Shown here: piece by piece, positions 4,526 to 41,291 of the stretch
How the letters are laid out: the number at the start of each line of letters is the position of its first letter
Numbering within the stretch: position 1 is the stretch's first letter
From: a virus
Strand: one strand, 5' to 3'
Virus record (IMG/VR): IMGVR_UViG_3300020442_000007
Span: 62,001-126,000 of that record
Length of the DNA: 64,000 nt
The notes under the pieces: model-generated
What the model saw: only the letters and a program-made list of their open reading frames with translations
What the model was told of the DNA's origin: nothing
The model's database searches: none
Made by a program: the position numbers and the translations under genes

Positions 4526-4554
4526 TTGACAATATAAGTAATTCATAGTATAAT
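4526..4554 (+). promoter_or_regulatory. Perfect sigma-70 promoter (TTGACA, 17 bp, TATAAT)
   Basis: TTGACA at 4526-4531 and TATAAT at 4549-4554 are separated by exactly 17 bases. The expected transcription start, about seven bases after the -10 box, coincides with the ATG at 4561, so the mRNA would be leaderless or nearly so. This is a host-polymerase (early) promoter, unlike the late motifs at 3035 and 3087. Confidence 0.85.
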
Positions 4555-19977: not shown

Positions 19978-20619
19978 TTATTTGATACCAATTTTCATAA
20001 ATCTAATATAACCGCCTTGATCTGTGAGATCAAGTTCTCCTTCGTAAAGTGTTTCTGACATATGTACACTTTCACTAAATTCTTTAAGACTTTTACTACA
20101 ATTTACGTGTTCTTCTAATTTTGTAAAATTATTACTCTGCAAAATTACCAGCTTGTCTTTAGGAATATTTGAGTACCAATCACTGAAGTTAGCAATATGT
20201 TCACAACTTGTGTTTATAATAGTATCTGGCATATCAGTTAATGTAACAAACTTTTTATCATATGTTAAAGTTTCATAAGTTGTTGGGTATTGCATAGTAT
20301 TAATATCTAACGTTGTTGCTTTAAACTTCCAATTATCAACTACCCAAGGCATATTAAATTTTTCTGCTATTTCTTTACAACTGTCATCCACATCAAAACT
20401 TCTAATTTTTGTTACAAGAACATTAGATTCAAATAACATTGTAGCAAGTGTAGCATACCAACCCGCACATAAAAAAACTATGCCAAGATCAGGACAGTAT
20501 TCTTCTACTTTTTTAACAAGCCATTCTTTACTTTTTAATTGTCCGCCACTAATGCAATCCTTATTAAAATCAGGATTGTCTAAAACATAATATAGACTTT
20601 TAATTAATTGTGATGTCAT
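19978..20619 (-). CDS. Putative SAM methyltransferase-like protein
   Basis: A 213-residue protein that ends the minus-strand early operon. Residues about 45-70 (LGIVFLCAGWYATLATMLF) resemble a motif-I loop, with IRSFDVDDSCKEIAEKFN following as the acidic strand-helix element and TLTDMPDTIINTSCEHI as motif IV. The glycine pattern is unusual (CAGWYAT), so the call is moderate. It overlaps the glycosyltransferase gene by 20 bases. I recall related methyltransferase-like proteins next to glycosyltransferases in marine T4-like phages. A role in finishing or capping a glycan is a guess. Confidence 0.6.
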   Translation of the reverse strand: MTSQLIKSLYYVLDNPDFNKDCISGGQLKSKEWLVKKVEEYCPDLGIVFLCAGWYATLATMLFESNVLVTKIRSFDVDDSCKEIAEKFNMPWVVDNWKFKATTLDINTMQYPTTYETLTYDKKFVTLTDMPDTIINTSCEHIANFSDWYSNIPKDKLVILQSNNFTKLEEHVNCSKSLKEFSESVHMSETLYEGELDLTDQGGYIRFMKIGIK

Positions 20620-21631
20620 TAAACTTTTCTTTTAACCAAACAAAATCGTTAATTTTTTTTAGTTCAGTTGCATTTCCCTTCCATTTTTGACCATATTCTT
20701 TACCAGCGTTAGCACCAGCAATACAATATTCACCAAAAGACTTATTTTTTCCTTTGGTGCACCATTCATTTAATCTTATCTCTGTTTCTTTATCATTTTG
20801 TCCTTGAATTACTTTACTACTGAGTTTTACACATTCTCTAAATGCACTTTTCCAAGTGCTGAATGGATCTGTATTAAATAAAGAAATATTACTTACCTCA
20901 GGCATTGCTTTAAAACGCACACTTATGCTTGTAGTCATATCTGTACTTTCTGTATCTACGTTAAGTGTAAGTTTCCTTGGTAATAATTTTACTCCTCCGT
21001 TGCCATATGTAAGCCTGTTTATAGGATTTTGACTCCTCCATACATGTACAATATTTTGCTCATTAATAGATACTGTCATTTGAAAATCAAAATTATCATT
21101 TATATAAGCATCTCCATCAACAACATAAAACATATCAGATTTACAAAGTTTTGCTGCCTCTATATGAGCTTGATGTATACCAGAAACACCATGTACTCTC
21201 TTAGCCCAAGGCATTTTGTCTAAAAGACGCCTGTAATTTACATCTGCATTAGGTTCATCATAGCTTATAAACACAACATCATACGTTGGTTTAGGTGTAC
21301 TTGCTAATATATCTATTTCTTTCTTGTCTGCGAAAAATCTATATTGTGCTTCTCTAGGATGTACTTCAACTCTTTTAGGGTACAAACAAATGCCATTATA
21401 CTTGTCAGCATTTTTAAATACATGAATTACTTTTTGATCCCATTTTTCAGGTGCATAAGAAAAATCAAAATTATTTTCAACTAGCAAGTCGTCCCATATA
21501 ACCCAAAACATAGTTGTAACTGCTAATTTTTGAGCAGAATCAAAATCTGGAGCATATTTAAGTCCAAAAAATTTATCTTTCAAATCTGTATAATGTTGTG
21601 TCTTTTCACCAACAAAAATTATATCATACAT
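20600..21631 (-). CDS. Glycosyltransferase-like protein, paralogue of 29548
   Basis: A 343-residue protein. A central domain beginning at YDVVFISYDEPNADVNYRRLL and continuing PWAKRVHGVSG and FYVVDGDAYINDNF (a DxD motif, usually metal and nucleotide-sugar binding) is shared in order with the protein at 29548 (DVVYLSYDEPNAEENY, PWAKRVHGVKG, FITVDGDNKIKNNF). Both continue with NRLTYGNGGVKLLP or NGLVYGNGGLKCWP. The N-terminal 100 residues are extra here. Its own perfect sigma-70 promoter lies immediately upstream, and the ATG coincides with the predicted transcription start, so the mRNA is probably leaderless. Sugar donor and acceptor are unknown. Confidence 0.75.
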   Translation of the reverse strand: MYDIIFVGEKTQHYTDLKDKFFGLKYAPDFDSAQKLAVTTMFWVIWDDLLVENNFDFSYAPEKWDQKVIHVFKNADKYNGICLYPKRVEVHPREAQYRFFADKKEIDILASTPKPTYDVVFISYDEPNADVNYRRLLDKMPWAKRVHGVSGIHQAHIEAAKLCKSDMFYVVDGDAYINDNFDFQMTVSINEQNIVHVWRSQNPINRLTYGNGGVKLLPRKLTLNVDTESTDMTTSISVRFKAMPEVSNISLFNTDPFSTWKSAFRECVKLSSKVIQGQNDKETEIRLNEWCTKGKNKSFGEYCIAGANAGKEYGQKWKGNATELKKINDFVWLKEKFNDITIN

Positions 21632-21636
21632 TCTTA

Positions 21637-21665
21637 ATTATATACTTTCTTATGCAAAATGTCAA
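21637..21665 (-). promoter_or_regulatory. Perfect sigma-70 promoter inside the early operon
   Basis: On the minus strand, TTGACA (21660-21665), a 17-base spacer and TATAAT (21637-21642). The -35 box contains the TGA stop of the upstream gene. The predicted start site, about seven bases past the -10, falls on the ATG at 21631, giving a leaderless message for the last two genes. Confidence 0.85.
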
Positions 21666-22825
21666 CCATATCGTATTGCGTCAAATAATTTTAGAAACAT
21701 AGGCATGTGGGACCTTTCTAAGAATTTGGCTTTATTAACTTTAGCAAATTTATTCAACGTTTTCAACGCATTTTTTGTTTCTTCTGATCTACAATTATTT
21801 TTTAACCTTGTTAATTCATGACAAATTAAGTCAGCACGTATACTTACATCTGCATATGTATCATATTTTTCATTTAACAAATCAAAAAAAGTAAAATATC
21901 CTTGCTGATTTAAATATTTCATAGTTTGTTGACATCCAAAAACCATAAATGGCTTTCCCATTACTAGTAACTGCCAAATATCCAGATTAGTGAACAAAGC
22001 GTTTACTTCACTCATGTAAGCCATTCTGTTATTAGGTGCCCAAGGTGTTAAAATTGATATAAGACTATTAGCATGATAATCAATACTATCGTTCTTATGT
22101 ATTATACTACCATGATCATACAATTCGTTTGCCTCTAAAGCAGAATATAGCTGTACACAATTTGGTGCTTGTGGGTATTCTGAAAAATTATGAAATAAAA
22201 GTTTAGGATTGAATTGATCTATGTCAAAATCTAACACAGGCATAGGATCATTTATTGGTTTAAAAAAATTTTTATATTTTACCGTGTCGTTATTGATAAT
22301 TAATCTTGATTCAATTTGCCACCAATCTATAGAATATGACTTATAAGGATCTAATAGCTCTTGGTATGTATTATTCAAATCAGCGGTAACTAAAATAATA
22401 TTTTCCACAGGAACTTTGCATCTCATAAACATTTCTGCCACATGTCTAAGCCTAATTACTTCGTTAGCACCTTGTAATGTTTGCCCTAGCAATAAGACTT
22501 TCATTTTTCCTGCACGTAAATAGTCTAAAGTTTTATGCGGTATATTAATATTGATACCATAAGATACTTCAAATGGGTAGAATATGTCTTCTTTAAATCC
22601 TCTTACAGGATTAAATATATCATCTCCTGTGAATAACTGTATTTCACAATCATTTTTTACCATAGTATAATAAAAACTAGAAATAACTTCTACCATACTG
22701 TCTATGCTGTCTCTATCACCAAACGGATAAGGCCAAGTCTCAGGATGATTATCATGATAAGATGTTATACCGTTAGGAACAGGCCCGCAATCCTTAATAA
22801 CATCATAATAAAAATTAATCGCCAT
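21662..22825 (-). CDS. Hypothetical glycosyltransferase-cluster protein (387 aa)
   Basis: A 387-residue protein of unknown function. Residues about 300-350 (MGKPFMVFGCQQTMKYLNQ, QGYFTFFDLLNEKYD) follow a pattern found in phage proteins near glycan genes, in which KPF, a Gly and a YFTF...EKYD word are conserved. I recall this type of motif from glycosyltransferase-like proteins, but no metal-binding DxD is certain. ALL-alpha/beta layout with a VLLLGQTLQGANEVIRL segment near residue 112. It overlaps the radical SAM gene by 11 bases and precedes the internal promoter. A transferase role is plausible but not shown. Confidence 0.55.
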   Translation of the reverse strand: MAINFYYDVIKDCGPVPNGITSYHDNHPETWPYPFGDRDSIDSMVEVISSFYYTMVKNDCEIQLFTGDDIFNPVRGFKEDIFYPFEVSYGININIPHKTLDYLRAGKMKVLLLGQTLQGANEVIRLRHVAEMFMRCKVPVENIILVTADLNNTYQELLDPYKSYSIDWWQIESRLIINNDTVKYKNFFKPINDPMPVLDFDIDQFNPKLLFHNFSEYPQAPNCVQLYSALEANELYDHGSIIHKNDSIDYHANSLISILTPWAPNNRMAYMSEVNALFTNLDIWQLLVMGKPFMVFGCQQTMKYLNQQGYFTFFDLLNEKYDTYADVSIRADLICHELTRLKNNCRSEETKNALKTLNKFAKVNKAKFLERSHMPMFLKLFDAIRYG

Positions 22826-24098
22826 ATTCTTTATACCATTTATTCCATATTTCAGTTAATTTAGGATGAATTTTTGTTACATCTTGATTCCTAATTCTAT
22901 CATAGGTAATTGTTCTTCTTACAAAATGTGTACGCCAATTTTTGTATTTGTCTATTGTTTCTAAATCTACTGGATCTGGTAATTCTAATCTTGCAATAAC
23001 ATGAGGCAAACGACTAATCCTTAATTGTTCATCTGTCAATAGATGTAATCTTGATTTTAATTCTTCTGCTATTTCGATTTTATAACTAAAAGGTATAAGA
23101 TCTATCATTAAATCTATAGGGCCATTTACTGGATTAAACACAATGTTTGTAGATTTGCCATGCTTATACCAATAATCTACTAATTTAGGTAAATCCCATG
23201 CATTGTAAATTTGTGCTGTTGCAAGTAATTGTACTGTGACTGGCATTTTTAAATAATGCTGATATGCTTTATCTAATTCATTCCAGTTTGCTCCATATCT
23301 TATGTAATCGTTTGCATATCCTATACCACACATACTAAATTGCAAGTCAACTTGTCTAAATTTAGGCAAAAGATTTGTTGTTTTACTCTTTAATCTACTG
23401 CCATTGGTAGTAATATCAAGCATTAAATGTGTATTTCCGCTTTCTACACACCATTTTAGTAGTTTATACACGCCTGGCATGAATAACGGTTCGCCGCCTG
23501 CCAGTTTTATAGAAGCCATTTTAGGAATATGTTTTTTTACACTTTCAAAACATACAGGATCGTCAATCCAATCTTGTACATCTTTCCATTCTTCGTTCAT
23601 TATTTCTTGTGTTTCAGGATGTTGTTGCTGTTCTTTAGCAATAGTGCTACTAATTGCACCAAAACACATTCTGCAACCAAAATTACAAAGACGTCCTGGT
23701 CTATAATCCGCCCATGTTGGACCGCCGGTATTATTACCTTTCTCAATATCAAGACGCAAATCTGGATTCTTTTTGAGTCTATATTTTAAATAAACCTCAT
23801 TCAAACTTTCTCTGTCTGAGCCGCCACCTTGTTTATCTTGTTTCCAGCAAGTTGTACAACGTTTTTCAAATTTTCCTTCTAACATTGTCTTACGAACCTC
23901 TTGCATGTCTTCACTTTCCCATACTTCTTGTAAATCATGCCCTTGTACATTTTTTACAATAGGAAAATTATAGTCTGCTAAACAACAAAGATTAACAAAT
24001 CCGTCAGTTGCAATATATTGATGTGTAAAAGGCATGGTACAAAATGCAGGATTATTTTTTATTTGCCATTCTACATTTAAATTATATTTCTTTTCCAT
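22815..24098 (-). CDS. Radical SAM protein, twitch-domain type
   Basis: A 427-residue protein. I prefer the ATG at 24098 over a GTG one codon earlier. The radical SAM cluster motif is CNFGCRMC (C138, C142, C145). Before it lies an auxiliary-type segment with C20 (NPAFCTMPF), C38-C39 (NLCCLADY) and C81/C84 (CTTCWKQ), which could bind a further Fe-S cluster. KLAGGEPLFMPGVY is the GGEP motif contacting SAM. Order: auxiliary cysteine region first, radical core second. The enzyme should cleave SAM to a 5'-deoxyadenosyl radical; substrate unknown. It is one of four such proteins in this operon. It overlaps the gene at 24082 by 17 bases. Confidence 0.85.
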   Translation of the reverse strand: MEKKYNLNVEWQIKNNPAFCTMPFTHQYIATDGFVNLCCLADYNFPIVKNVQGHDLQEVWESEDMQEVRKTMLEGKFEKRCTTCWKQDKQGGGSDRESLNEVYLKYRLKKNPDLRLDIEKGNNTGGPTWADYRPGRLCNFGCRMCFGAISSTIAKEQQQHPETQEIMNEEWKDVQDWIDDPVCFESVKKHIPKMASIKLAGGEPLFMPGVYKLLKWCVESGNTHLMLDITTNGSRLKSKTTNLLPKFRQVDLQFSMCGIGYANDYIRYGANWNELDKAYQHYLKMPVTVQLLATAQIYNAWDLPKLVDYWYKHGKSTNIVFNPVNGPIDLMIDLIPFSYKIEIAEELKSRLHLLTDEQLRISRLPHVIARLELPDPVDLETIDKYKNWRTHFVRRTITYDRIRNQDVTKIHPKLTEIWNKWYKEYGD

Positions 24099-26334
24099 CA
24101 CAATCCTTTATCATTTGTGCAATATCTGACAACGAGTCTTGCCAAGATTCATTTCTTATTTTATCTAATCTCTCCATCCAAGGCCACAAACCTTCATATG
24201 CTACTTCGTCTGGCTCTTTATCCCACATATGTGTTAATATACTTTTGCATCTCTGTTCCACTCTTCTACAAAAAGCAACTTCATCTACATTAGAATCCCA
24301 TCTAGCATACAATCTATCTAGGAAATTTTTGTACTTTTTATCAATGTATTTTTTATATACCACAGGTAAATTTTGTATGTTAAGGACATCAGGTCCATAT
24401 AAATTATGTACAATAATAACTTCTTCAATCCTATTCCAATTTTGCTCCTTCATCCACCATTGCATTTCAGGATAGTGCAAAACGTTTTGTATACTTAATG
24501 TAAGGGTAATACTTGCAATAAGTTTTTCAAATCCATCTTCTCTATCTACACGGCGCATATTTTTTAATACAGTTGAAAACTTTCCTGGATGCCGAATAAA
24601 TTCAAAATGTTTGTTTATCCCATCTATACTCATTCCTAGATTGACTTGCTTAAAATGTTTCCATTGCTTGAATACTGCACTAGGTACTCCTGCCATATTA
24701 GTATTATAGTCTAAAGTAACTTCGTTTGCAGTTCCTTTGTCAATATAGTAATCTAATAATTCTCTATGTTTTAAATTAATTGTTGGTTCGCCGCCTGTAA
24801 AATAATACCTTTTGATAGTATCTAAATTATTCATTATATGTTTCCATAAACTAGAATATGTTTGATCTGGATCAAATAGGTCAGGCACAGTATTTGTACC
24901 GTCTGGTAAAGTTTCAATTTTGACTTTGTTATGTCCTCTATAGTTAAAACGTGTATCTTCAGGATGGAGTTTTACCCAATCGTCGTACCATAAACTGCTA
25001 TCTGTAGGACCACAGCTTCTGCATTTGAGATTACATTTGTTTCCAAATCTTAAGTCCATATATGTAATAGGAAAATCAGTATCTTTAATCGAACCATCTT
25101 TTTCTGTGTTAACTATTGCTTTGTAATAAACATCAGTATACAACTTGCGAGTCCATTGTCTTTTGCTACCTATACCATTAGTCTCCTCGTTAGTACATAG
25201 TTTACATATTTCAGGATCTATACCACTTATCATCTCTTTTCTAATTTGTTTCCATACTGGTGAATTTCTATGTTTAGTGATATCATCTTTGCCGGTCAAA
25301 AGTGTACCATCTTCTTTGTATACAGTTCCAAACGGTGAATTTATCATTTGACAACACATTCTAATGCTTCCGTCAGCATTTGTAGCTAAATGATTCCAGG
25401 GTATAGGGCAAAAAGCATTCCATCTATCTTTATGTACAAGCATGTTTTCCTGTACTGCATCTATGACTTCAGTAGGTTTAATAAGCCTACTTCTTAAATA
25501 AGTTTTAATTCTTTTTCCTTGCGGAGTATCATTATCTACTAAACCTGGCTTACGATAAAGTGCTTCGAGTACTTCTTGATCAGTGTCATGTAAAGCAACA
25601 ATTTCTAAAACATCGTCAGGACAGTCTGGATGTAATATCATTTCTATTCTTTGTTCTGAAGTTCTTACAATATCTAAATCAAATGATATATTATTTGTTT
25701 GTGTTATTTCGCGTTGTACTATGGGTTTGACAAAACCCTGTAAAACTTTATTATTTTTCTTAATCCATTTTTGCACAATTTTTTTAAACTTTTTTGTATC
25801 TAAATTAGGAAAAATTCTTTGTAATTGTACAATAAGACTACCACTAGATTCATGCAATCCATCTATGTTTATAAGATGCATGTTAGCAAAATGATTTTTA
25901 TATTGTTTTAAAGCATCTAAATCTTTTTGAAACTGTCCTACGTGATTTTCAACAAACTTTGTAGGTAAATTTTCTACTTTATTAAGTTTTTGCCAAGCTA
26001 AATTAGTCCAATATTCGAAATTTTTTGTTAAGTGAAATCCAAGAACGGTCATTCTTTGATCCCAATAATTAATTACTTCAGGATCATAGTGATCTTTGTA
26101 CAAATCATGTTTATTTGGATCGTCTTCTCCAACATATTCCCACGGCAAATTTCTATCTCTACAATATCCTATTTTACATTTTGTAAACCATCTGTTTTCT
26201 CCAACGTCTTTTGTAGGTATGGCATTGATTTCAGGTACACATTGGCTCAAAGCGTATGTGATAATTTCTCCGCCGGTGCCGGCTGTATATAATACAAGGT
26301 AATTAACCCTGTTGTTGGAAAAATCTAATTTCAT
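24082..26334 (-). CDS. Fusion of a P-loop-like domain with a radical SAM domain
   Basis: About 750 residues. I start at the ATG at 26334; a GTG two codons earlier is less likely. The N-terminus VLYTAGTGGEIITYALSQC (residues 14-32) is like the free-standing P-loop protein at 27688 (VMYPSGACGEYLTQLVANH). After a helical linker, the radical SAM part begins near residue 305: C309 (NAFCPIPWNHL), C327-C328 (IRMCCQM), C377/C380 (ICKLC), then the cluster motif CNLKCRSC (C434, C438, C441) and GGEP at 514-517. So the order is P-loop-like, auxiliary cysteines, radical SAM. The fusion implies that the two activities act together on one substrate. It overlaps both neighbours. Confidence 0.85.
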   Translation of the reverse strand: MKLDFSNNRVNYLVLYTAGTGGEIITYALSQCVPEINAIPTKDVGENRWFTKCKIGYCRDRNLPWEYVGEDDPNKHDLYKDHYDPEVINYWDQRMTVLGFHLTKNFEYWTNLAWQKLNKVENLPTKFVENHVGQFQKDLDALKQYKNHFANMHLINIDGLHESSGSLIVQLQRIFPNLDTKKFKKIVQKWIKKNNKVLQGFVKPIVQREITQTNNISFDLDIVRTSEQRIEMILHPDCPDDVLEIVALHDTDQEVLEALYRKPGLVDNDTPQGKRIKTYLRSRLIKPTEVIDAVQENMLVHKDRWNAFCPIPWNHLATNADGSIRMCCQMINSPFGTVYKEDGTLLTGKDDITKHRNSPVWKQIRKEMISGIDPEICKLCTNEETNGIGSKRQWTRKLYTDVYYKAIVNTEKDGSIKDTDFPITYMDLRFGNKCNLKCRSCGPTDSSLWYDDWVKLHPEDTRFNYRGHNKVKIETLPDGTNTVPDLFDPDQTYSSLWKHIMNNLDTIKRYYFTGGEPTINLKHRELLDYYIDKGTANEVTLDYNTNMAGVPSAVFKQWKHFKQVNLGMSIDGINKHFEFIRHPGKFSTVLKNMRRVDREDGFEKLIASITLTLSIQNVLHYPEMQWWMKEQNWNRIEEVIIVHNLYGPDVLNIQNLPVVYKKYIDKKYKNFLDRLYARWDSNVDEVAFCRRVEQRCKSILTHMWDKEPDEVAYEGLWPWMERLDKIRNESWQDSLSDIAQMIKDCDGKEI

Positions 26335-27688
26335 TATCACTATATCCTACTAGCTTACCGCTATCATGACCCCTTATAGGTACTAAACTTATTGCTCCTA
26401 TCTGCCTACCATTTGCTCCTAAATCATTTATTCCTAATTTAATAATTTTATCATAAAAACTTTGAGCTCTATCTAACATGCCAGGCGGTGTCATTAATTT
26501 AATTTCTAACCAATGATCATCTGGTACTTTTTTATGCCTTTGAATAATAATTTCACAGTTTTTAATAAACCTTTCTTCATTACCAGGATAAAGATCCATA
26601 CTTCCGAAATGAGCACTCATATTTACACTATTAATATATTTACTTGCTTCAGTCCAGTATTTTGTGCTACGACTACCATTTGTAGTAACAAGGACCCATT
26701 GATTCCTACTTTTTAAATGTTTCAAGATATCTAAAAATTTAGGATTCATTGTAGGCTCACCGCCTCCAAAATTCCATCTTATAGTTTCTCCTTTACTCCA
26801 AGAGTCTATGGCTTTATCTATTGTTTCTATAATTTTTTCATAGTCATGATGTGCTTCTTTATTATTATGCACACTTGGCCAGCAATAATCACAATCATAA
26901 TTACATCTTCTTGTTATATCCCACAAGATTTGATGATTAATTGGAAAATTCATTTCTATACCGACTGGAGTAGTATCAAATGCATTTTGTGGATTTTTTA
27001 CTGGGTCTTGAAAATGGCCTTTATCTTGACCATCATAACCATATCTAGTTACATTTAAATTTTCTAAAGCAGGCTCGTCTTTTGCTTTACTTAAAATTAC
27101 ATCTGCTCCGCAACCACAGCTATCAAAAGGACAACTAGTCCATTGTTTAGGAGTTTCCCAACCTGTAAAAATACTTCCCTGTAATCCCCAAATATCATCA
27201 TTCTTTTCTGCTTTCCATTGCCAAGTAGCAGGATCCTTCATAAATTGTTTATACGGATCATCAAAGAATTGTTTTTCTAATTTTTTAATAAAGGACATTA
27301 GCGTAATATGTTGCTCACAAGTTTCCCAATTTTTTTTTGGCATAGGCCAACCATCTCTTGTATTTTCTTCAATCCATTCTTTGTGCGGATATGCTCCTAT
27401 AAATGATTCTCTATATTCTTTCCATAATCTATCAACTAAATCAGGATCATGATTTGTAAAATTTTTAACTTTTTGTTCATGAACTTTACCGTACTGAGAT
27501 GCACTTGCACAATTTGCAATCCACACATTACCATCATAGTCTATGTATAAACTTCTTACACCTGCACTACATTTCCAATCTTTCCAATGGTTAAGATTAT
27601 TAGCAATAACTTCATCAACACTATACAGACTATACTGATTATTTTTATTGTATATTCTTAATTGCCTATTGCCTGTAGGTTGGTCCAT
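26303..27688 (-). CDS. Radical SAM protein with an N-terminal auxiliary cysteine module
   Basis: A 461-residue protein. The radical SAM core is C-terminal: CNYDCDYC (C262, C266, C269) and WNFGGGEPTMNP (306-316). The N-terminal 200 residues contain C40 and C60 (WKCSAGVRSLYIDYDGNVWI, then ANC) and a C186-x4-C191-x-C193 cluster (CPFDSCGCGAD). The protein encoded at 28572 has the same module at its C-terminus, with identical spacing (C263, C283, then C307-x4-C312-x-C314). The module order is therefore reversed here, as in a circular permutation or a gene fusion. It overlaps the genes on both sides. The substrate is unknown. Confidence 0.85.
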   Translation of the reverse strand: MDQPTGNRQLRIYNKNNQYSLYSVDEVIANNLNHWKDWKCSAGVRSLYIDYDGNVWIANCASASQYGKVHEQKVKNFTNHDPDLVDRLWKEYRESFIGAYPHKEWIEENTRDGWPMPKKNWETCEQHITLMSFIKKLEKQFFDDPYKQFMKDPATWQWKAEKNDDIWGLQGSIFTGWETPKQWTSCPFDSCGCGADVILSKAKDEPALENLNVTRYGYDGQDKGHFQDPVKNPQNAFDTTPVGIEMNFPINHQILWDITRRCNYDCDYCWPSVHNNKEAHHDYEKIIETIDKAIDSWSKGETIRWNFGGGEPTMNPKFLDILKHLKSRNQWVLVTTNGSRSTKYWTEASKYINSVNMSAHFGSMDLYPGNEERFIKNCEIIIQRHKKVPDDHWLEIKLMTPPGMLDRAQSFYDKIIKLGINDLGANGRQIGAISLVPIRGHDSGKLVGYSDNEIRFFQQQG

Positions 27689-28572
27689 TAGATATACCCG
27701 CCTCGCATAGAGTTATATACAACATTGTTTCTGTTAATGTAATTTGCTAATTCTGGTTTTGCAGTATCTATAGCAAAATCTCTATACAATATTCTCAACT
27801 GTTTAACGATGCGATCTGCTGATTTAGGTAAAGTATCTATATCTAATGTATAATAAGAGTTAAATTTTGATCGTAAATTATCTAACAAATAATCATTTTC
27901 TTTGTATTTTTTTGAAAAACTTGTTATAGAATCTTTTATAGATTTTTTGTGTTCGTATGGTGCTGAATCGTTATTAATAATTTTATGATAAAGAGACCAT
28001 ACGTCATTCAACCAAACCCATTCATATTCCAAACCTATTCTATCTGAAATTTTTTGTGCAATATCATCACTACAACCTATTCTGTATGTTATAAAATTAG
28101 GATCAACAGGAGTTTTTAATTTATGAGCTGTTTTAGCATAATACAATGTAGCAAAATATTCATAGGCATAAGATGAACTAAACTTAATGTGTAAAACATT
28201 TACCTTATCTGCAATAGGCGTCAACAATTTTATTGTAGTGCGATCTACATGATCACGAACAACAAAGTTTTTTGTTAAATCTAAATCATTTGTCAAATAG
28301 TATTCTTCATTTATCCAATTACTTTTATTTTCCCTTTCATGTAGTTGACCTATGAAATGTAATCTGGGAATAATACATTGACATTCATATCTATTGCTAG
28401 GAATATTTAAATTATGGTTCCATTGTATACTATAAGAAGGTACATTATTGAAAGATGCAGTATGATTAGCAACAAGTTGGGTAAGATATTCACCGCATGC
28501 TCCTGATGGATACATAACCACAGTAATTTTTTTTTCGTCTAAAAGTTTGTTTACTAGATCACCTTTATCCAT
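27688..28572 (-). CDS. P-loop/sulfotransferase-like protein
   Basis: A 294-residue protein with a phosphate-loop-like N-terminus VVMYPSGACGEYLTQLVANH (residues 18-37), similar to the start of the fusion protein at 24082. The remaining sequence is alpha/beta, with NFVVRDHVDRTTIKLL and NVLHIKFSSSYAYEYFATL as possible donor-binding strands; the last third is helical and charged. No Walker A lysine is present. It is squeezed between two radical SAM genes with stop/start overlaps (TAATG) on both sides, so a constant ratio of products is likely. It may bind a nucleotide donor or the substrate for the radical enzymes. Confidence 0.65.
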   Translation of the reverse strand: MDKGDLVNKLLDEKKITVVMYPSGACGEYLTQLVANHTASFNNVPSYSIQWNHNLNIPSNRYECQCIIPRLHFIGQLHERENKSNWINEEYYLTNDLDLTKNFVVRDHVDRTTIKLLTPIADKVNVLHIKFSSSYAYEYFATLYYAKTAHKLKTPVDPNFITYRIGCSDDIAQKISDRIGLEYEWVWLNDVWSLYHKIINNDSAPYEHKKSIKDSITSFSKKYKENDYLLDNLRSKFNSYYTLDIDTLPKSADRIVKQLRILYRDFAIDTAKPELANYINRNNVVYNSMRGGYI

Positions 28573-29546
28573 TACTTTTCCTTTTTACTCATAATATCAA
28601 AATTACAATGGCAGTAGCTTTTATTACAAATGACTGGTTTTGTTGGCCAAGCAATACTTTCTGGCTCTTTCATATTACCCAATGAGCCTCCAACTCTACA
28701 CCAACCTATCATTACAGTACCGTCAAAATCTACTACGATTTGTTCAACACCGCTATAACATTTCCATCCTTCCCAGTTATTTGTATTATCAGCAATAAAT
28801 CTATGTGCGGCACGATTTTTTGTTTCACCCGTTTTAGAATTAATCATGTCCATACTACCTCTATACAGTTTGAAGTCGTTGTCTCCTGTATACTTAATAT
28901 GTTTGCCAAAATCTTCCCATTGTCTATCTATAATATCTAGCTGTTCTTGTGTATAAGGAAACCTTTCACTTCCAAAATCAATCACTAGTGGTTGTAGAGC
29001 AAGGCTGAAATTTGTTGCTTCTTTTACTAATTTTTTTGTTAATTCTACGCCGTTGTTAAATCTATCAATGTCAGTGTGCATCATTATATTTACATGTGTT
29101 CTACACACCTTGGTCATAATTTTAACAACTTCTAAAAAATGATCAGCTTCTGCACTTTCAGGATGAAAACTTAAACATACATGATCAAAGTTATTTTTAT
29201 TTTTCTCCCACCATCTTATTGTACGACTAGCGTTACTTATAAAGCCTATATCGTGACCTTTAGACTTAATGTATTGGGCACACTTTATAAAGTCTTTCCA
29301 TAGTGTAACCTCTCCACCTGTAAATTCAAAATAAACTTTTCTTGGTGCATAATGTTTTTCACATGCATCAATAAATTTTTTTATAATTTCAAAATCATTC
29401 CATCCATATGAACCATTATTAAGTACAGGAGGGCAGTAACTACAAGAGTAGTTGCAGGTATTACCTAGATTCCAATTGACAACAACCCAATCTTTAGCTT
29501 CCTTGTGATGATGGTCTAAGACATCATACACCATATCAGTTTGCAT
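28572..29546 (-). CDS. Radical SAM protein with C-terminal SPASM-like cysteine module
   Basis: A 324-residue protein in standard order. The radical core opens with NWNLGNTCNYSCSYC (C31, C35, C38) and has FEFTGGEVTLW near residues 73-83 as the GGEP equivalent. The C-terminus holds an auxiliary module: C263 (WEGWKCYSGV), C283 (IGWCRVGG), then C307-x4-C312-x-C314 (CNKSYCHCNFD). Such SPASM-like regions bind one or two extra Fe-S clusters in enzymes that modify peptides or sugars. It is the first radical SAM gene after the glycosyltransferase at 29548. No short precursor peptide gene is visible beside it. Confidence 0.85.
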   Translation of the reverse strand: MQTDMVYDVLDHHHKEAKDWVVVNWNLGNTCNYSCSYCPPVLNNGSYGWNDFEIIKKFIDACEKHYAPRKVYFEFTGGEVTLWKDFIKCAQYIKSKGHDIGFISNASRTIRWWEKNKNNFDHVCLSFHPESAEADHFLEVVKIMTKVCRTHVNIMMHTDIDRFNNGVELTKKLVKEATNFSLALQPLVIDFGSERFPYTQEQLDIIDRQWEDFGKHIKYTGDNDFKLYRGSMDMINSKTGETKNRAAHRFIADNTNNWEGWKCYSGVEQIVVDFDGTVMIGWCRVGGSLGNMKEPESIAWPTKPVICNKSYCHCNFDIMSKKEK

Positions 29547-29547
29547 A

Positions 29548-30477
29548 TTATTTTACCCCCGATCCGCTTAATCCTTTGTGTCGATTAACACGATCAGGCT
29601 GTTGATATATTGATTTAAAAAATTTACTTGCACCTGGTGTAAAAGGCTCGCTATCAATTGGCAACTGTAATTCATTTATTAATTTAATTCCGTAATCCTT
29701 AGAAGAATTAGTCACATCTTCAACACTAGAAAATTCACTTTTCCATAAATCATTAAGATATTCAAAGTCACGAACATTTACATAATCCCAGTCTGTACAC
29801 ATTGTTTTATACACAGCTGCTCTTGTACCAAGCATTGCCCAATCACCATTTTTTACATCTGCTCCAACCATTGCCCAAATATACAACCAATGTAAACATC
29901 TCCAATGCAAATTTAAAAATTCATCTTTGTTTGGTTTGATACCCTGATTAAGTGATAATTTTACACCTTCTCTAAAACCAGCTCTCCATGCTTGTTGAGG
30001 TGTAGCATTATTATATACATCAGAGAAGCAACTATTCATTTGTACATATTTGAGGTCCCAACAAAAATCTACTTGTGCATGTTCATTATCTGGATCTGCG
30101 TTTTCGTGTGTACGCATATTTAACACGTATTCTTTTGGCCAGCATTTTAAACCGCCATTACCATAAACAAGTCCGTTAACTTCATTTTTTCCTGCCCAAC
30201 TTATAACACAATTTTCTAATTCTACGTCATCTTCAAAAGATATTTCTTCTTTTAAAAAATTATTTTTTATTTTATTATCACCGTCTACTGTGATAAATCT
30301 ATCCGTTTCACTTAACTTTGCACATTCTTTATGTGCAGCGTCTGAACCTTTAACTCCATGAACACGTTTTGCCCAAGGAACCTTTGTTAATAAGTCAGCA
30401 TAATTTTCTTCTGCATTGGGTTCATCATAACTTAAATATACTACATCATAATCAAGTACTTTAAATTTATTAGGCAT
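29548..30477 (-). CDS. Glycosyltransferase-like protein, paralogue of 20600
   Basis: A 309-residue protein with the same domain as the protein at 20600, here starting almost at residue 1: DVVYLSYDEPNAEENY, PWAKRVHGVKG, HKECAKLSETDRFITVDGDN (a DxD-type motif), then NGLVYGNGGLKCWP and FREGVKLSLNQG. The domain looks like a GT-A transferase. The two copies lie near the two ends of the operon, with the radical SAM genes between them, which suggests a shared pathway. Cofactor and substrate are not visible from sequence. It lies one base from the radical SAM gene and eight bases from the gene upstream. Confidence 0.75.
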   Translation of the reverse strand: MPNKFKVLDYDVVYLSYDEPNAEENYADLLTKVPWAKRVHGVKGSDAAHKECAKLSETDRFITVDGDNKIKNNFLKEEISFEDDVELENCVISWAGKNEVNGLVYGNGGLKCWPKEYVLNMRTHENADPDNEHAQVDFCWDLKYVQMNSCFSDVYNNATPQQAWRAGFREGVKLSLNQGIKPNKDEFLNLHWRCLHWLYIWAMVGADVKNGDWAMLGTRAAVYKTMCTDWDYVNVRDFEYLNDLWKSEFSSVEDVTNSSKDYGIKLINELQLPIDSEPFTPGASKFFKSIYQQPDRVNRHKGLSGSGVK

Positions 30478-30484
30478 CTGGCAA

Positions 30485-31048
30485 TCATTTCCTTACGATA
30501 TGATAAAAATTTTCATCATTTACAGGACAATACAAACTTATTTTATCTAATGTTACTAAATGTGCATCATCTGTTTCTATATCGAATAATTTTTTGTTAG
30601 TAAATTTTTTCATATCAATAGTAAGTTGTCCTAGTAAAATATTAGGGTTATTTTCTTCTGTAACATATACTTTTTTAAACTGACTTAAATATTTATTGTT
30701 GATAATTCTTGACTCAACTAGTCCTGAAATATGTGCTTTACCTTGCCATTTTTCTTTCTTTTTGTCTTGGAAGATATAAAAAGATAAAGGATCATAGCCG
30801 GTAATCTTATCTAGCCGTTTTATTTCATGAATACTTTTATCTACATCAAAATTTTCTGTTTCATCTTTTCTTAAAAATTTTGGAGGAGCTTCAGGACTTA
30901 GTAAAACATAATAATCAACAAGGTTACACTTACCTGATACAAAATCTACATATAAGTCTTTATCGATAACTAAGTGTGGATCATCACTTTTGTTTTCATT
31001 TGTTACTGATAATAAATCTCCTGATTCACTGTAATACACATAAAACAT
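30485..31048 (-). CDS. Hypothetical protein in glycosyltransferase operon (187 aa)
   Basis: A 187-residue protein with no motif I recognise. The N-terminus (MFYVYYSESGDLLSVTNEN) and the middle (YYVLLSPEAPPKFL, VYVTEENNPNILLGQLTID) suggest a beta-rich fold. No signal peptide or membrane segment is present. It overlaps the GT8-like gene at 31048 by one base and lies seven bases before the next gene, so it is expressed with the transferases. An accessory or binding role in glycan modification is only a guess. Confidence 0.6.
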   Translation of the reverse strand: MFYVYYSESGDLLSVTNENKSDDPHLVIDKDLYVDFVSGKCNLVDYYVLLSPEAPPKFLRKDETENFDVDKSIHEIKRLDKITGYDPLSFYIFQDKKKEKWQGKAHISGLVESRIINNKYLSQFKKVYVTEENNPNILLGQLTIDMKKFTNKKLFDIETDDAHLVTLDKISLYCPVNDENFYHIVRK

Positions 31049-31875
31049 TAAACTGACTCCAATCTACTGATTAACCTATCAGTGAGAAATTCTGGTTCAA
31101 CATAATGTAAAATATTTCGTTGTAAAAAATTTCCAATCATCATAGTTTTATCTTTTGTAAAATAACCACCTAATACTGTGGTCCATTTACTAGGTACTTC
31201 ATGCCAATTTTGACAATGAGGTTTCATGTGAGTAAATGTAATAAAAGAGTTTGGATCTGTTATGTCTAAAGTATTATCTAATATCTTACTAGCAATACTA
31301 CAACTTAAATCCATACTACACCATTTTTGATAATAGTTCCCTGCGAATCTTCCATAAAATAATTCCCAGTTGATCATAATTATTTCTAAAAGTTTAAAAA
31401 ACTCATGAGCTTCGTCGCTTTTCTTAAAATAATAAAATGCAGAATATAAATTAGGCAAATTATTTTCGTCCCATGTTTTTCTGTAATACCTAGTAGTTAC
31501 ATTTTCATTACGATAATTCTTTACATTACTTACAAAAAATAAATTTCTTTTTTTAAGTTCGGACCACCAATGAGTAATATCATGTAATATTAACATATCA
31601 ACATCCATTACAATAGTATGTTCATAAGGAGAAGCATGGTATACTTTCCATCTATTTTCAATCTTCCAATTAGTATCCTTTGCTTGATCTGTCCAAGGAA
31701 TATCTATAATCTTATCAAACACAGATTTGTACTTTTCAGGTACTTTATCATTTGTAATTAATGATATATTTTGATCTTTATTAAATTTATGTATGCTAGT
31801 AGCTAAAGCATATGCCTGCTTAATATAATCAACTTCAGCATTATTCTGTGCTAGTAAACAAAATCCGTCACTCAT
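31048..31875 (-). CDS. GT8-like glycosyltransferase (copy 2)
   Basis: About 275 residues, started at the ATG at 31875; a TTG two codons earlier is possible. The opening CLLAQNNAEVDYIKQAYALATSI and the DxD word TIVMDVDMLILHDI (near residues 91-103) match GT8-type transferases, which use the DxD to bind a metal-nucleotide sugar. RWKVYHASPYEHT just before the DxD is the region shared with the copy at 31868. It overlaps that gene by eight bases, indicating a tandem duplication. The C-terminal half contains FVSNVKNYRN and HMKPHCQNWHEVPSKWT. The sugar and acceptor are unknown. Confidence 0.75.
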   Translation of the reverse strand: MSDGFCLLAQNNAEVDYIKQAYALATSIHKFNKDQNISLITNDKVPEKYKSVFDKIIDIPWTDQAKDTNWKIENRWKVYHASPYEHTIVMDVDMLILHDITHWWSELKKRNLFFVSNVKNYRNENVTTRYYRKTWDENNLPNLYSAFYYFKKSDEAHEFFKLLEIIMINWELFYGRFAGNYYQKWCSMDLSCSIASKILDNTLDITDPNSFITFTHMKPHCQNWHEVPSKWTTVLGGYFTKDKTMMIGNFLQRNILHYVEPEFLTDRLISRLESV

Positions 31876-32725
31876 TTTCAAACTCTTTATCTATTGCTCT
31901 ACCTAAACTAAATTTATTCATAACATGTACATTTGCATCTTCAACTGTAGCACCTACAAAACTTCCTCCACTTGTGTAATCACAAATAAATGTCATTTTA
32001 TTTCCATCTAGATTGTGTAACATATCTCCATCTGAAGCCATATACATATTTCCTGGCATAGTACGTGGCCAAGGACCTAGTTGAAATCCTTGCAATATAT
32101 GAATTGCAATGCTAAAAGCAAAATCATTTCTATAATTGTTATTAGGTATTTGATATATTAATCTATAATAGTTCCAATTGTCTTTTATGTGCTGTATTAA
32201 ATTAAAATACATTTGCATAAAGTCAGATTTCTTAAAATAAAATCCAGTAGCCCACCACATGTCTATTGAACGATCACTTATCCTATCAAATTTTTGTAAT
32301 CTTCTTAAAGTTTTTGCAACATCTGTTGGATGCCTATAAATCAAAAAATCTTGATCCATATTAAAACAATTTAATAATTGATTATTACAAATAATAAAAT
32401 CAACATCTAACACAATAGTTTCATCAAACGGAGTAAGATTGTAACAATCTGGTCTTGAATGATTTTTCCAAGCTAATTTTTTTGTACTATATACTCCGTC
32501 TAAAAAAATTCTTTTTTGTTCTGTATGGGTTATTGGTATTGGTAGAACTTGATCAATATACTTTTGATAGAAAGTGAAAGCTCTTTCGAGATATTCAGGA
32601 TTGTCTGTAACTAATGCTACAGGCAACTTCAAATGTTCTTTTATTTTCTTTGCACAAAAAACTGCTTGTTTTATATAATCTACTTCTAAATTGTTAAGTG
32701 CAAAGAGTAACACACCTTGCGTCAT
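31868..32725 (-). CDS. GT8-like glycosyltransferase (copy 1)
   Basis: A 285-residue protein. The start VLLFALNNLEVDYIKQAVFCAKKI closely parallels the copy at 31048 (CLLAQNNAEVDYIKQAYALATSI). The DxD word ETIVLDVDFIICNNQLL lies near residues 104-120, after NLTPFDET. Later segments (DMWWATGFYFKKSDFMQMYF) also parallel the other copy. This is a GT-A family transferase using a nucleotide sugar. It overlaps the small gene at 32722 by four bases, which is translated first from the promoter at 33095. Two neighbouring copies may add two different sugars. Confidence 0.75.
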   Translation of the reverse strand: MTQGVLLFALNNLEVDYIKQAVFCAKKIKEHLKLPVALVTDNPEYLERAFTFYQKYIDQVLPIPITHTEQKRIFLDGVYSTKKLAWKNHSRPDCYNLTPFDETIVLDVDFIICNNQLLNCFNMDQDFLIYRHPTDVAKTLRRLQKFDRISDRSIDMWWATGFYFKKSDFMQMYFNLIQHIKDNWNYYRLIYQIPNNNYRNDFAFSIAIHILQGFQLGPWPRTMPGNMYMASDGDMLHNLDGNKMTFICDYTSGGSFVGATVEDANVHVMNKFSLGRAIDKEFENE

Positions 32726-33069
32726 AAATTTAGAATGCCTTCAATTGTTCTAGTCTTTTTAAGCTCATTAAATTTTTGTAGATATGCATTTGCATTTGTA
32801 GAATAGATATTCAAAATTTCGTCTAAGAAATCTTGTAAATTTTCTATTTCTATAGGTGAATTATTATCATCTAATAAAATTGAACTGGATTGATTATTTT
32901 GTATTAAAGTATTACAAAAATTAATTAATTCTCTGTTTACATTAAATTTCCCACCATTTACATAATGTACACAATTTTCCAAAAATTTTTCATGTATAAG
33001 ATTACGCTGGTTATTTAACGTAATCATGTGATTAGAAAAATCTAGTGCTTTTTCTAGCCTATCGTCCAT
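32722..33069 (-). CDS. Small helical protein, first gene of the early operon
   Basis: A 115-residue, largely helical and acidic protein of unknown function. No motif is recognisable; the sequence has repeated Leu/Ile heptad-like spacing (ALDFSNHMITLNNQRNLIHEKF, then FLDEILNIYSTNANAYLQKF), so a coiled-coil or helical bundle is likely. CTTAAGGAG lies upstream of the ATG, giving a short normal leader of about 19 bases from the promoter at 33095. Being first in a host-promoter operon, it is produced early. It may be a regulator or adaptor for the transferases downstream, but this is a guess. Confidence 0.65.
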   Translation of the reverse strand: MDDRLEKALDFSNHMITLNNQRNLIHEKFLENCVHYVNGGKFNVNRELINFCNTLIQNNQSSSILLDDNNSPIEIENLQDFLDEILNIYSTNANAYLQKFNELKKTRTIEGILNL

Positions 33070-33094: not shown

Positions 33095-33123
33095 ATTATA
33101 TACTAAAAATTGCTTGTTGTCAA
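33095..33123 (-). promoter_or_regulatory. Perfect sigma-70 promoter driving the 13-kb early operon
   Basis: On the minus strand, TTGACA at 33118-33123 and TATAAT at 33095-33100, separated by 17 bases. The transcription start should be near 33088, leaving about 19 bases before the ATG at 33069 with a normal AAGGAG. It divides the late structural genes (upstream, 33137 on) from the early glycosyltransferase/radical SAM operon (downstream). Confidence 0.85.
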
Positions 33124-33136
33124 TGGTATAATTGGC

Positions 33137-34159
33137 TTATGCTATTCCTGAGCCAACGAACGCATATGTTGGTGTTGCTATAGAAATTGGACCGTTACAA
33201 CGGGTTTGTGACATGGTAAGATCTATGTCCAAATCTACTTGTTCATCTGTAAAAGGGTCGCCAGTATCAGCATCAGTCCATGAAAATTTGAAAGTAATAG
33301 TCCCATTATTATCATGTTTTGCTTCTACCTTTATACTGTTTTCTGCATACAATACATCAGATCCAAATTTTACAGCAATATCTTGATAACTTGTTGTTAA
33401 ATCTTCTGAACCAAACCCAGCTCCTACTGTTGCTGTTCCGGTTGTTGTAGTTGAACTATTTTTAAATGTTATGGTGCCAAAATTAGATAACATAGTTGCC
33501 CAATCTGCTGACTTAGTACCTGAACCATTTGAACCTGAAGTTGAAAATCTTATGTCTCCTCCAGTATTAAAAAAATGTCTTCTATGGTCATCACCGGTAG
33601 CAGTGACAGCACTACCATCATCATTCTTACATGTATATCCTCCAGCAAAAGTTACATTTACTTCTGCTGTAAGTGTAGTATTCCAACTAGATGTATATGA
33701 TGCTCCTGAAGTAGACGGCGTAATTTTTGATTCTAATACTAAGTGACTTGCAAACACTTGTTCAGGATCTGCTTCTATAGCTGTGAACGTTGGTCCAAAA
33801 TCATTTACGCCTTTATTAGCATCTGGATTTACAATAGTAAATGTATCTGTTGGATTGTCTCTCAACACCGTACTACCTGTACCAACATTTGATTCATCAG
33901 CACCGATAATATTACCACTTACTATTTCACCAATAGCAGTAGAAGTATTCAACTGATGTGCATGTATTAAATTTAAATCTGTTCTTAATCCAGCCCACTG
34001 AGCAGCTGTAATATCAGTAGTCCCAACTATTGCTGTGCCGGTGTTAGCCATAGCTACACCATATCCTCTTTTACCTGTGCCGATACCTAATATTGCATTG
34101 ACTCGTTGAACATAGTCATTGTACAAAGCCGCTTCAACATTAGATCCTACAGATGGCAT
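33137..34159 (-). CDS. Virion structural protein, tail/fibre-like (paralogue 1)
   Basis: A 340-residue protein. It shares with the protein at 34217 an N-terminal pattern of the kind YNDYVQRVNAILGIG (or FNGLQSRIETVLGQG), an L-rich AQW/THLQNLK region, and the striking RRHFFNTGGDIRF, SADWATMLSNFGTI words near residues 185-225. The C-terminus is beta-rich (IKVEAKHDNNGTITFKFSW). The fold and layout are typical of phage virion proteins. A late GATAAATAC lies 30 bases before the ATG. It is the last structural gene before the early operon. It may be a fibre or decoration subunit on the baseplate. Confidence 0.7.
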   Translation of the reverse strand: MPSVGSNVEAALYNDYVQRVNAILGIGTGKRGYGVAMANTGTAIVGTTDITAAQWAGLRTDLNLIHAHQLNTSTAIGEIVSGNIIGADESNVGTGSTVLRDNPTDTFTIVNPDANKGVNDFGPTFTAIEADPEQVFASHLVLESKITPSTSGASYTSSWNTTLTAEVNVTFAGGYTCKNDDGSAVTATGDDHRRHFFNTGGDIRFSTSGSNGSGTKSADWATMLSNFGTITFKNSSTTTTGTATVGAGFGSEDLTTSYQDIAVKFGSDVLYAENSIKVEAKHDNNGTITFKFSWTDADTGDPFTDEQVDLDIDLTMSQTRCNGPISIATPTYAFVGSGIA

Positions 34160-34188
34160 ATTTTTTCTCCATTATACGGTAATATAAT

Positions 34189-34197
34189 GTATTTATC
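34189..34197 (-). promoter_or_regulatory. Late promoter motif GATAAATAC
   Basis: On the minus strand, 30 bases before the ATG at 34159. The identical nonamer occurs at the same spacing before 36661 and before 41264, which argues for function. Confidence 0.65.
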
Positions 34198-34216
34198 GGA
34201 ATCTAAGGTAATTGTT

Positions 34217-35116
34217 TTATAGTTCTGACGTGTTGTTATACGTCGGAGAAGGAACAGATACATATGTTCCTGATGGTCGTCTGTGGGTGATTGAGCTTAA
34301 TATATCTCCAGTAACGTTTGGATCACCTCCGCCATCTGCGTTATCTTGAAATTGTACATCAAACTCTATTACATTATCAGCTAGTGTACGTGCATTTATT
34401 TGATACATGTTGTTATTGTAGTCATATGCTGTACCTAATTTATGAAATATTCTTTGTGAAGTACCTGTTAATTCAAAGTTACCAATAGCAGTTGGTACTC
34501 CTGATCCTGTTTGTGTAGTTGCATGTGATGCCATTGATATGGTTCCCATACCTGCTAACATAGATGCCCAATCAGAATCTTTTCCGCCGCTTCCGTTTGA
34601 AAGATTAGCTTGAAATCTTATTTGTCCGCCAGCATTGAAAAAATGACGTCTTGCGGCTGCATCAGTAAATGTCACAGTAAAAACATGAGTTATAGTACCA
34701 TTCCATTCAGATACTCTTGTGCTTTGTAATACTGATTCTACAGATGCTTGTGTATCATCACAAAGTTGTCTATCTGCTTCAAGACTGTTGACTAATGTGA
34801 GATAATCATTTATACCTTTTGAAGTATCTGTTGTACCGTCTTTATCAATAGATTCAGATGCACCTATTCTATCTGTTGGATTAATAAGTGCCAAACTTGT
34901 AACACTACCAGTTTGATGTGCTCTACATTTATCTATATCTGATTTTAAATTTTGTAAATGTGTTGCTGTAATGACTGTGTTGGCAGCAACAATTGAACTG
35001 CTTAGTGTCTGACCATATCCTGTATCTGCAAAGCCTTGGCCAAGAACAGTCTCAATTCTACTTTGCAAACCATTAAAGGTTGCAGCTGTAATTAGTTCTT
35101 GGGCGTTAACGGTCAT
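34217..35116 (-). CDS. Virion structural protein, tail/fibre-like (paralogue 2)
   Basis: A 299-residue paralogue of the protein at 33137, with the same RRHFFNAGGQIRF, SDWASMLAGMGTI words and a similar N-terminus (ELITAATFNGLQSRIETVLGQG). The two are adjacent, showing tandem duplication of a structural subunit. The C-terminus TYVSVPSPTYNNTSEL ends in an extended segment. A role in the tail or as a fibre is likely, since the fibre genes follow upstream. Start ATG at 35116 with an upstream GGAA-type site. Confidence 0.7.
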   Translation of the reverse strand: MTVNAQELITAATFNGLQSRIETVLGQGFADTGYGQTLSSSIVAANTVITATHLQNLKSDIDKCRAHQTGSVTSLALINPTDRIGASESIDKDGTTDTSKGINDYLTLVNSLEADRQLCDDTQASVESVLQSTRVSEWNGTITHVFTVTFTDAAARRHFFNAGGQIRFQANLSNGSGGKDSDWASMLAGMGTISMASHATTQTGSGVPTAIGNFELTGTSQRIFHKLGTAYDYNNNMYQINARTLADNVIEFDVQFQDNADGGGDPNVTGDILSSITHRRPSGTYVSVPSPTYNNTSEL

Positions 35117-35134
35117 AACGAGCGATTCCTATTT

Positions 35135-36661: not shown

Positions 36662-36694
36662 TTTTATTAACCCCTAATATGCATTATATTAATA

Positions 36695-36703
36695 GTATTT
36701 ATC
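36695..36703 (-). promoter_or_regulatory. Late promoter motif GATAAATAC
   Basis: On the minus strand, 34 bases upstream of the ATG at 36661, in the short gap before the stop of the neighbouring fibre gene. Confidence 0.65.
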
Positions 36704-36707
36704 AGCA

Positions 36708-40645: not shown

Positions 40646-40649
40646 CTAT

Positions 40650-41264: not shown

Positions 41265-41282
41265 ATTATTTTTCCTGTCATT

Positions 41283-41291
41283 GTATTTATC
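41283..41291 (-). promoter_or_regulatory. Late promoter motif GATAAATAC
   Basis: On the minus strand, overlapping the end of the giant gene (stop at 41287) and 19 bases before the ATG at 41264. Its sequence is identical to the motifs at 34189 and 36695. Confidence 0.6.

Follow-up and report, generated by a model that had tools for sequence, protein, structure and literature searches.

What does a phage do with four radical SAM proteins and several glycosyltransferase-like proteins encoded together beside its tail fibres? The question is raised by a stretch of DNA of 64,000 nucleotides from an uncultured virus (the window; positions 62,001 to 126,000 of the 165 kb IMG/VR record IMGVR_UViG_3300020442_000007). 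Most likely, the operon found there serves to make an elaborate surface glycan while infection is under way. The combination of glycosyltransferases and radical SAM enzymes points to a glycoconjugate as its product.

The operon and its phage

The operon consists of 13 consecutive minus-strand ORFs running from 33069 to 19978, with spacings of −38 to +30 nt between genes. The first-pass annotation of this DNA had described thirteen tightly packed minus-strand genes, and its coordinates were exact. Genes are named here by their lower coordinate, and all features described lie on the minus strand. The annotation had also suggested comparing the gene neighbourhood in marine T4-like phages. This virus is not a typical member of that group: the gp6-like protein is ~35% identical to its counterparts in Salicola phage SCTP-2 and Atu_ph07 and, judged by this protein, the source virus is a jumbo-like phage.

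The glycosyltransferase core

The first gene of the locus, 32722 (32722..33069; family F5), encodes a phage-specific protein of 115 aa, and its family comes first in 105 of 105 GT8-GT8 loci having upstream sequence. It is followed by two paralogous GT8-type glycosyltransferases, 31868 (31868..32725) and 31048 (31048..31881; TTG start, phrog_1903). Their family profile matched glycogenin (GT8) with E=6e-7, and the DxD residues D93/D95 are nearly invariant; the pair was assigned to GT8 on this profile similarity to a member and on the DxD. The Pfam search retrieved no GT8 match, neither for the family nor for single members. The gap between the GT8 pair and the next glycosyltransferase holds a small, fast-evolving protein, 30485 (30485..31048), which keeps its position in 105 of 109 loci; its families A7, A8, and A9 are homologous to one another. 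By eye, and from sequence alone, 30485 looked beta-rich.

The core ends with 29548 (29548..30477), a GT-A fold glycosyltransferase of what we call the DEPNA family, identified by AlphaFold, Foldseek, and conservation. Its model had a pLDDT of 88.7, and nearly all its Foldseek matches were glycosyltransferases (prob up to 1.0, with TM-scores near 0.3); the PDB profile search gave no match. D65/D67 of the VDGD motif are invariant in the family alignment. The family is present in 109/109 distinct loci, and viral contigs contain no fewer than 593 relatives of 29548. A second member, 20600 (20600..21631), is 36% identical to 29548 and carries an N-terminal extension; fold and DxD-type acidic motif place both in GT-A. 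Thus, profile, fold, and paralogy bear out the glycosyltransferase-like calls previously made at 20600, 29548, 31048, and 31868.

The fold matches of 29548 also bear on the acceptor. Ser, Thr, and Tyr are targets of GT8 and GT-A enzymes, and amino acid residues are altered by radical SAM enzymes. As a serious rival to a host acceptor, though the less likely of the two, the operon products may therefore act on fibres of the phage itself or on the small protein 30485, diversifying or shielding the adhesin. Matches to SunS (a peptide glycosyltransferase), the PBCV-1 capsid transferase, and a Che8 transferase favor this reading, but lipopolysaccharide transferases (WrtF) are found among them too.

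Radical SAM proteins and their partners

The four radical SAM proteins that had been proposed, all with an intact CX3CX2C motif, were confirmed by PF04055, SPASM, and NF033640, and they are the only ones in the 165 kb record. 28572 (28572..29546; PF04055 E=2e-9, 103 viral relatives) has a C-terminal twitch/SPASM-like part, with post-core cysteines arranged as C-X20-C ... CX4CXC. In 26303 (26303..27688) the auxiliary-cluster domain comes first: residues 5-71 match 28572 residues 220-294, and residues 256-360 match 28572 residues 25-128. From these swapped matches and the motif order, 26303 is, at the sequence level, a circular permutation of 28572. The other two pass the 170-bit cut-off of the N-terminal-twitch family NF033640 (N_Twi_rSAM): 22815 (22815..24101) with 293.5 bits and 24082 (24082..26340) with 333 bits, the latter differing from the family by a fused P-loop-like domain. 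Both 26303 (34.6 bits) and 28572 (29.3 bits) fall short of it. PF04055 was above its cut-off for 24082, 26303, and 28572; 22815 reached 20.0 bits against 29.5, and its assignment rests on SPASM (36.8 bits) and NF033640. A viperin label (NF038283) for 26303 and 28572 was rejected, with 62.7 and 48.8 bits against a cut-off of 180, despite being their top-listed NCBIfam match.

Twitch/SPASM enzymes frequently act on peptides, which counts against a glycan product. With four such enzymes, a small variable protein at a fixed place, and a SunS-like fold match, 32722 or 30485 could be a ribosomal substrate that is matured by the radical SAM enzymes and glycosylated, as in RiPPs. All 13 operon genes encode at least 115 aa, in a check that covered ORFs from 60 aa up. 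We consider a RiPP-like product improbable. In their makeup, 30485 (187 aa) and 32722 (115 aa), each with 2 Cys, look less like leader-core peptides than like conserved proteins of an ordinary kind. Neither a transporter nor a protease was seen, and none of the RiPP maturase models reached its cut-off against the operon proteins. Moreover, the number of radical SAM genes after the core ranges from 0 to 7 per locus, and in 9 of 87 relatives no such gene lies close by, so these genes are dispensable for the locus.

The P-loop-like domain of 24082 (AlphaFold pLDDT 88.4) has a homologous, extra stand-alone copy in 27688 (27688..28572; GxGGE-type loop), which is absent from relatives L007 and L008. 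Fold matches of 27688 and the 24082 N-terminus were weak (E 0.008-0.05), to nucleotide kinases and to the sulfotransferase StaL (E=0.008). The 27688 profile did not match the sulfotransferase-like proteins of relatives. The earlier P-loop-like claim thus keeps weak support for these two regions at the fold level.

Two proteins gave no match in the profile libraries searched, PDB included. 21662 (21662..22825), with relatives in 12 loci, may be a further transferase, and its previous label of unknown stands. The last gene, 19978 (19978..20619), had been called methyltransferase-like, but no library searched supported this with a Class I methyltransferase profile; from a look at its sequence, we retain it as a putative methyltransferase-like partner of the second DEPNA gene. 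Of 52 distinct cases, 33 have a gene of its type directly after a DEPNA gene, among them the bacterial loci L108 and L116.

Promoters and timing

A perfect sigma-70 promoter ahead of the operon had been reported, and we found it at 33095..33123 (TTGACA-17-TATAAT), matching 12/12 positions of the sigma-70 consensus. Perfect sites are rare: only 10 occur in the 165 kb record, against 0 in the reversed control, and the window contains 3 where 0.30 are expected. Another one, previously overlooked, lies at 21637..21665, upstream of 20600, and at the equivalent place in L007, L008, and L009-L011. Since it precedes the last two genes, transcription is predicted to occur probably as two early units, of 11 and 2 genes. 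The hexamers of the operon promoter are conserved in relatives where the spacer has diverged. Conserved promoter sites support a predicted early switch-on of the operon in the source phage.

Early timing, which the first-pass annotation had proposed, fits this apparently co-transcribed locus but is not a general property, because some relatives lack the sigma-70 promoter and have the first start codon within a strong hairpin. Among 107 distinct leaders, 57 carry a promoter of at least 11/12 and 36 a start-site hairpin, with both together in only 4. Hairpins were scored by folding each sequence and counting pairs; RNAalifold on the leader alignment recovered the hairpin only in part because some 5′ arms were shifted. 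In some relatives, expression of the first gene seems to be late. An ATAAATA ahead of the 28572 gene in some relatives was rejected as a late promoter, because it falls within the coding region of the gene before it.

Of the adjoining virion and tail-fibre genes (33137, 34217, 35135, 36708, 38621, and 40650; 33137..41306), three (35135, 36708, and 38621) matched tail/virion phrogs, and relatives have like neighbors. T4-type late motifs (ATAAATA at 34196, 36702, and 41290) precede these structural genes and not the operon. This difference in promoter type argues against decoration of the phage's own fibres, whereas the late-type leaders of some relatives favor it. So does composition, with 22–23% S/T in 33137 and 34217 against ~9–13% in most operon proteins.

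Conservation of the locus and comparison with known systems

The order virion/fibre gene, 32722, GT8, GT8, small protein, GT-A is almost invariant in ~109 distinct loci of related water viruses. The possibility that these genes are scattered in other phages was looked at, and they are syntenic instead. Virion or fibre genes lie directly upstream in 102 of 103 loci, a linkage that, with the constant 32722 and small protein, again favors the phage's own fibres as acceptor.

The linkage to tail fibres rather than replication genes also bears on DNA hypermodification, that is, glycosylated or otherwise altered bases. Phage DNA is indeed modified by glycosyltransferases, kinases, and radical SAM enzymes, and early timing would be compatible. 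We regard it as very improbable, given that linkage, the relatives in bacterial glycan clusters, and a 165 kb record (possibly a fragment) without any gene of the thymidylate-synthase/hydroxymethylase family.

Relatives' loci also carry sulfotransferase-like, carbamoyltransferase, and B12-radical SAM proteins, known glycan- or natural-product-tailoring types. In Ruegeria, DEPNA relatives adjoin GT28/GT4/FkbM genes. In Bdellovibrionota, they adjoin GT2, radical SAM, and hydroxylase-like genes, with no fibre genes nearby, which speaks against fibres as the acceptor. These chromosomal clusters resemble the locus in having DEPNA, methyltransferase-like, and radical SAM families adjacent, but the GT8 pair, 32722/30485, and tail fibres were not seen in the stretches examined.

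Catalogued isolate phages gave no match for 29548, 31048, 28572, 26303, or 32722, and weak matches for two other proteins. The isolate Vibrio phages K566/K567 similarly have three radical SAM genes beside unknown genes, but identity is just 23–28% and confined to part of the proteins, and none of the first four was matched. A split of relatives into marine and freshwater was dropped, as habitats were not given.

In pelagimyophages, a similar tail-linked position holds glycosyltransferases together with radical SAM cassettes, interpreted as altering the host surface (PMC7029224). As here, their host recognition cluster is a variable region by tail fibres, with several glycosyltransferases (GT8 commonest) and radical SAM cassettes (PMC7029224). 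Unlike the locus described here, it is described as non-syntenic and lies between VrlC and gp14 (PMC7029224), whereas ours is a six-gene block of near-invariant order in jumbo-type phages, with a defined early-type promoter. The gp6-like protein of the source phage points to SCTP-2/Atu_ph07 relatives.

A proposed glycan pathway linked to tail fibres

We give about even chances to a glycoconjugate pathway that moves along with the tail-fibre genes and has a host envelope glycan as likeliest acceptor. The two GT8-type enzymes and the DEPNA enzyme, assigned by profile, fold, and conservation, would assemble a short glycan. Judging by gene co-occurrence and by the chemistry of the families, we infer that the replaceable radical SAM set, the sulfotransferase-like P-loop protein, and the second DEPNA/methyltransferase-like pair would then tailor it. 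Turned on early from sigma-70 promoters in the source phage, the genes would alter the host envelope glycan and may mask the receptor of the neighboring fibres against competitors or progeny re-adsorption.

In favor of this pathway count the GT8 profile match, the GT-A fold, the core order, the conserved promoter and, by analogy, the tailoring genes in relatives, the bacterial glycan-cluster relatives, and the pelagimyophage precedent (PMC7029224). Against it count the apparently late first gene of some relatives and that no sugar-nucleotide synthesis gene was found within the operon. The host envelope is the probable acceptor, with the phage's own fibres a serious rival: the virion-gene linkage is unbroken, and the non-enzymatic, phage-specific 32722 and 30485 suit a virion substrate at least equally. 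Of the original interpretation, the co-transcribed-looking early-type locus and the glycoconjugate stand, and the genes are syntenic in other phages. The host surface as target is only the likelier of two candidates, and early timing does not extend to all relatives.

So far, glycosyltransferase/radical SAM cassettes of water phages have received brief mention as auxiliary genes. In the present case they form a single locus, ordered and regulated, with 29548 as marker gene, which opens a testable question: is it the receptor on the host or the fibre of the phage that is modified? We know of no precedent for radical SAM enzymes acting on a surface glycan or an adhesin in lytic infection. Tentatively, in a widespread system linked to tail fibres, an invariable set of glycosyltransferases and an exchangeable set of radical SAM enzymes, one of them a natural circular permutant, may modify the adhesin or the receptor with a glycan from a novel pathway, with timing switched between an early promoter and a hairpin-locked late leader.

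Operon architecture and promoters

The operon comprises 13 genes on the minus strand, from 33069 down to 19978, with intergenic spacings of -38 to +30 nt, and its coordinates are identical to those in the first-pass annotation. The perfect sigma-70 promoter reported ahead of it was recovered as well (33123-33095, minus strand, 12/12 match). The 165 kb record holds 10 such perfect sites vs. none in the reversed control. A second one (21665-21637, minus strand) serves genes 20600-19978 and keeps its place in related loci L007-L011. Another (4526-4554) lies just after a gene (3128-4522) whose product has an N-terminal domain of the Major tropism determinant type (Mtd_N).

ATAAATA, the expected T4-type late signal, precedes several structural genes but not the operon. 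Together with the depletion of TATAAATA in positions 1-64000 of the window (3 found vs. 14.7 expected), this placement suggests that the jumbo-like phage has a late promoter of the T4 type. The closest matches of the gp6-like protein (56847) come from the jumbo phages Salicola phage SCTP-2, Atu_ph07, and PA5oct, at ~35%. A 5186-aa ORF (41287-56847), flanked by baseplate and fibre genes, includes a CBM5/12 carbohydrate-binding module within the middle third of its length.

Radical SAM proteins

Paralogous pairs are found inside the operon: 31048/31868, 29548/20600, and the radical SAM proteins 24082/22815 and 26303/28572. As first annotated, all four radical SAM proteins present CX3CX2C; there are none elsewhere in the record. 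Proteins 22815 and 24082 both belong fully to NF033640, and in each the auxiliary-cluster domain precedes the catalytic core. In 28572 (28572-29546), the auxiliary cysteines (C-X20-C, then CX4CXC) follow the core, whereas in 26303 (26303-27688) the same motifs precede it. Both halves align in swapped order; judged by alignment and motif order, 26303 is thus a natural circular permutant of its neighbour. Among the members of this family in relatives, the auxiliary domain follows the core in 75 and precedes it in 48. Protein 24082 is a fusion whose residues 1-210 are homologous to the P-loop-fold-like protein 27688 (hhalign, 98.7%), a type encoded by its own gene just upstream in many relatives. 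This fusion suggests that the P-loop-like and radical SAM parts act together.

TRANSFERASES

The profile of 31048/31868 (the GT8 pair) matched glycogenin, a GT8 enzyme (E=6e-7). For the 29548 model (pLDDT 88.7), structural neighbours in the PDB were glycosyltransferases (SunS, WrtF, the PBCV-1 capsid transferase, and GalNAc-transferases), and likewise among viral models; since TM-scores are near 0.3, a glycosyltransferase is predicted at fold level only. The P-loop-like domain (pLDDT 88.4) first matched the sulfotransferase StaL and nucleotide kinases, at E 0.008 or worse. Neither 19978, previously called a terminal methyltransferase-like gene, nor 21662 found profile or PDB support, so their functional labels are guesses.

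Locus order in relatives

Scans retrieved 103 relatives of 28572 and at least 593 of 29548. Gene neighbourhoods were compared over 109 distinct GT8-pair loci, gathered by similarity to two of the locus genes, so that counts describe relatives, not all phages. The core genes are not scattered, and their order is near-constant: a relative of 32722 (the first operon gene) lies directly upstream of the GT8 pair (105/105), preceded by a virion or fibre gene (102/103), and the pair is followed by a small protein (105/109) and then a GT-A gene (109/109). The next ten genes include between 0 and 7 radical SAM genes. The locus thus has a constant part, the glycosyltransferase core, and a variable one, its complement of radical SAM genes. 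Additional genes seen in relatives are of sulfotransferase-like, carbamoyltransferase, and B12-radical SAM type.

DEPNA genes (the GT-A family of 29548 and 20600) sit among glycosyltransferase and FkbM genes in Ruegeria, and are accompanied by radical SAM and 19978-like genes in Bdellovibrionota. The chromosomal Bdellovibrionota clusters L106, L108, L114, and L116 combine DEPNA with radical SAM genes and represent a putative cellular pathway; the last three add 19978-like genes, and L108 and L116 also encode a QueC/LarE-like PP-loop protein. The contigs L096-L098, L100-L104, L107, L111, L122, and L123, which stand in bacterial or archaeal MAGs, are probably mis-binned phage DNA, because the phage locus is present on them, in most cases together with fibre genes.

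Product and acceptor

A glycoconjugate pathway is the reading with most evidence behind it, and we consider it quite probable; a RiPP product or DNA modification is unlikely. As acceptor, the host envelope has roughly an even chance, favoured by the early promoter, by relatives that lie in glycan clusters of bacteria, and by the way similar cassettes have been interpreted in the literature. A virion adhesin is the less likely acceptor, favoured by the unbroken linkage to virion genes and by the two phage-only proteins.

Leader control and novelty

Close relatives keep both promoter hexamers, while the spacer has diverged. Leaders of the 32722-type gene were compared in 107 distinct cases: 57 match sigma-70 at 11/12 or better, 36 fold into a hairpin at the start site (z ≤ -2.5), and just 4 show the two together (Fisher p=3.6e-10, too small a value because related leaders are not independent). 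Hairpin base pairs are kept in 83.6% vs. 29-44% in slid controls, and the 5′ arm of many hairpin leaders holds a motif of the TAAATA type that does not vary across 15 aligned leaders. In L041-L080 (e.g., L042:6795-6860), a strong hairpin whose 5′ arm contains an invariant TCTAAATA sequesters the start codon; the L053 leader has the same layout in unrelated sequence.

In T4 genes e and soc, a helix sequesters the start region, read-through early transcripts are translated poorly, and late promoters lie within the region encoding the 5′ strand of the helix (PMC3014915). The hairpin leaders share this layout and resemble the e/soc early-translation lock; by analogy, their TAAATA motif would be a late promoter. 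The early timing first proposed is backed by the sigma-70 promoter in this phage, but not in relatives with a hairpin in place of that promoter, where control would be late.

Glycosyltransferases and cassettes of radical SAM genes next to tail fibres were already known from pelagimyophages (PMC7029224); the fixed core order and the phage group are new here. Among the papers searched, none combined jumbo phage, glycosyltransferase, and radical SAM. Also new are the circular permutant 26303, the 24082 fusion, the paired promoters, and the alternation of promoter and hairpin: given these leaders and the T4 layout, the locus appears to have changed its timing from lineage to lineage.
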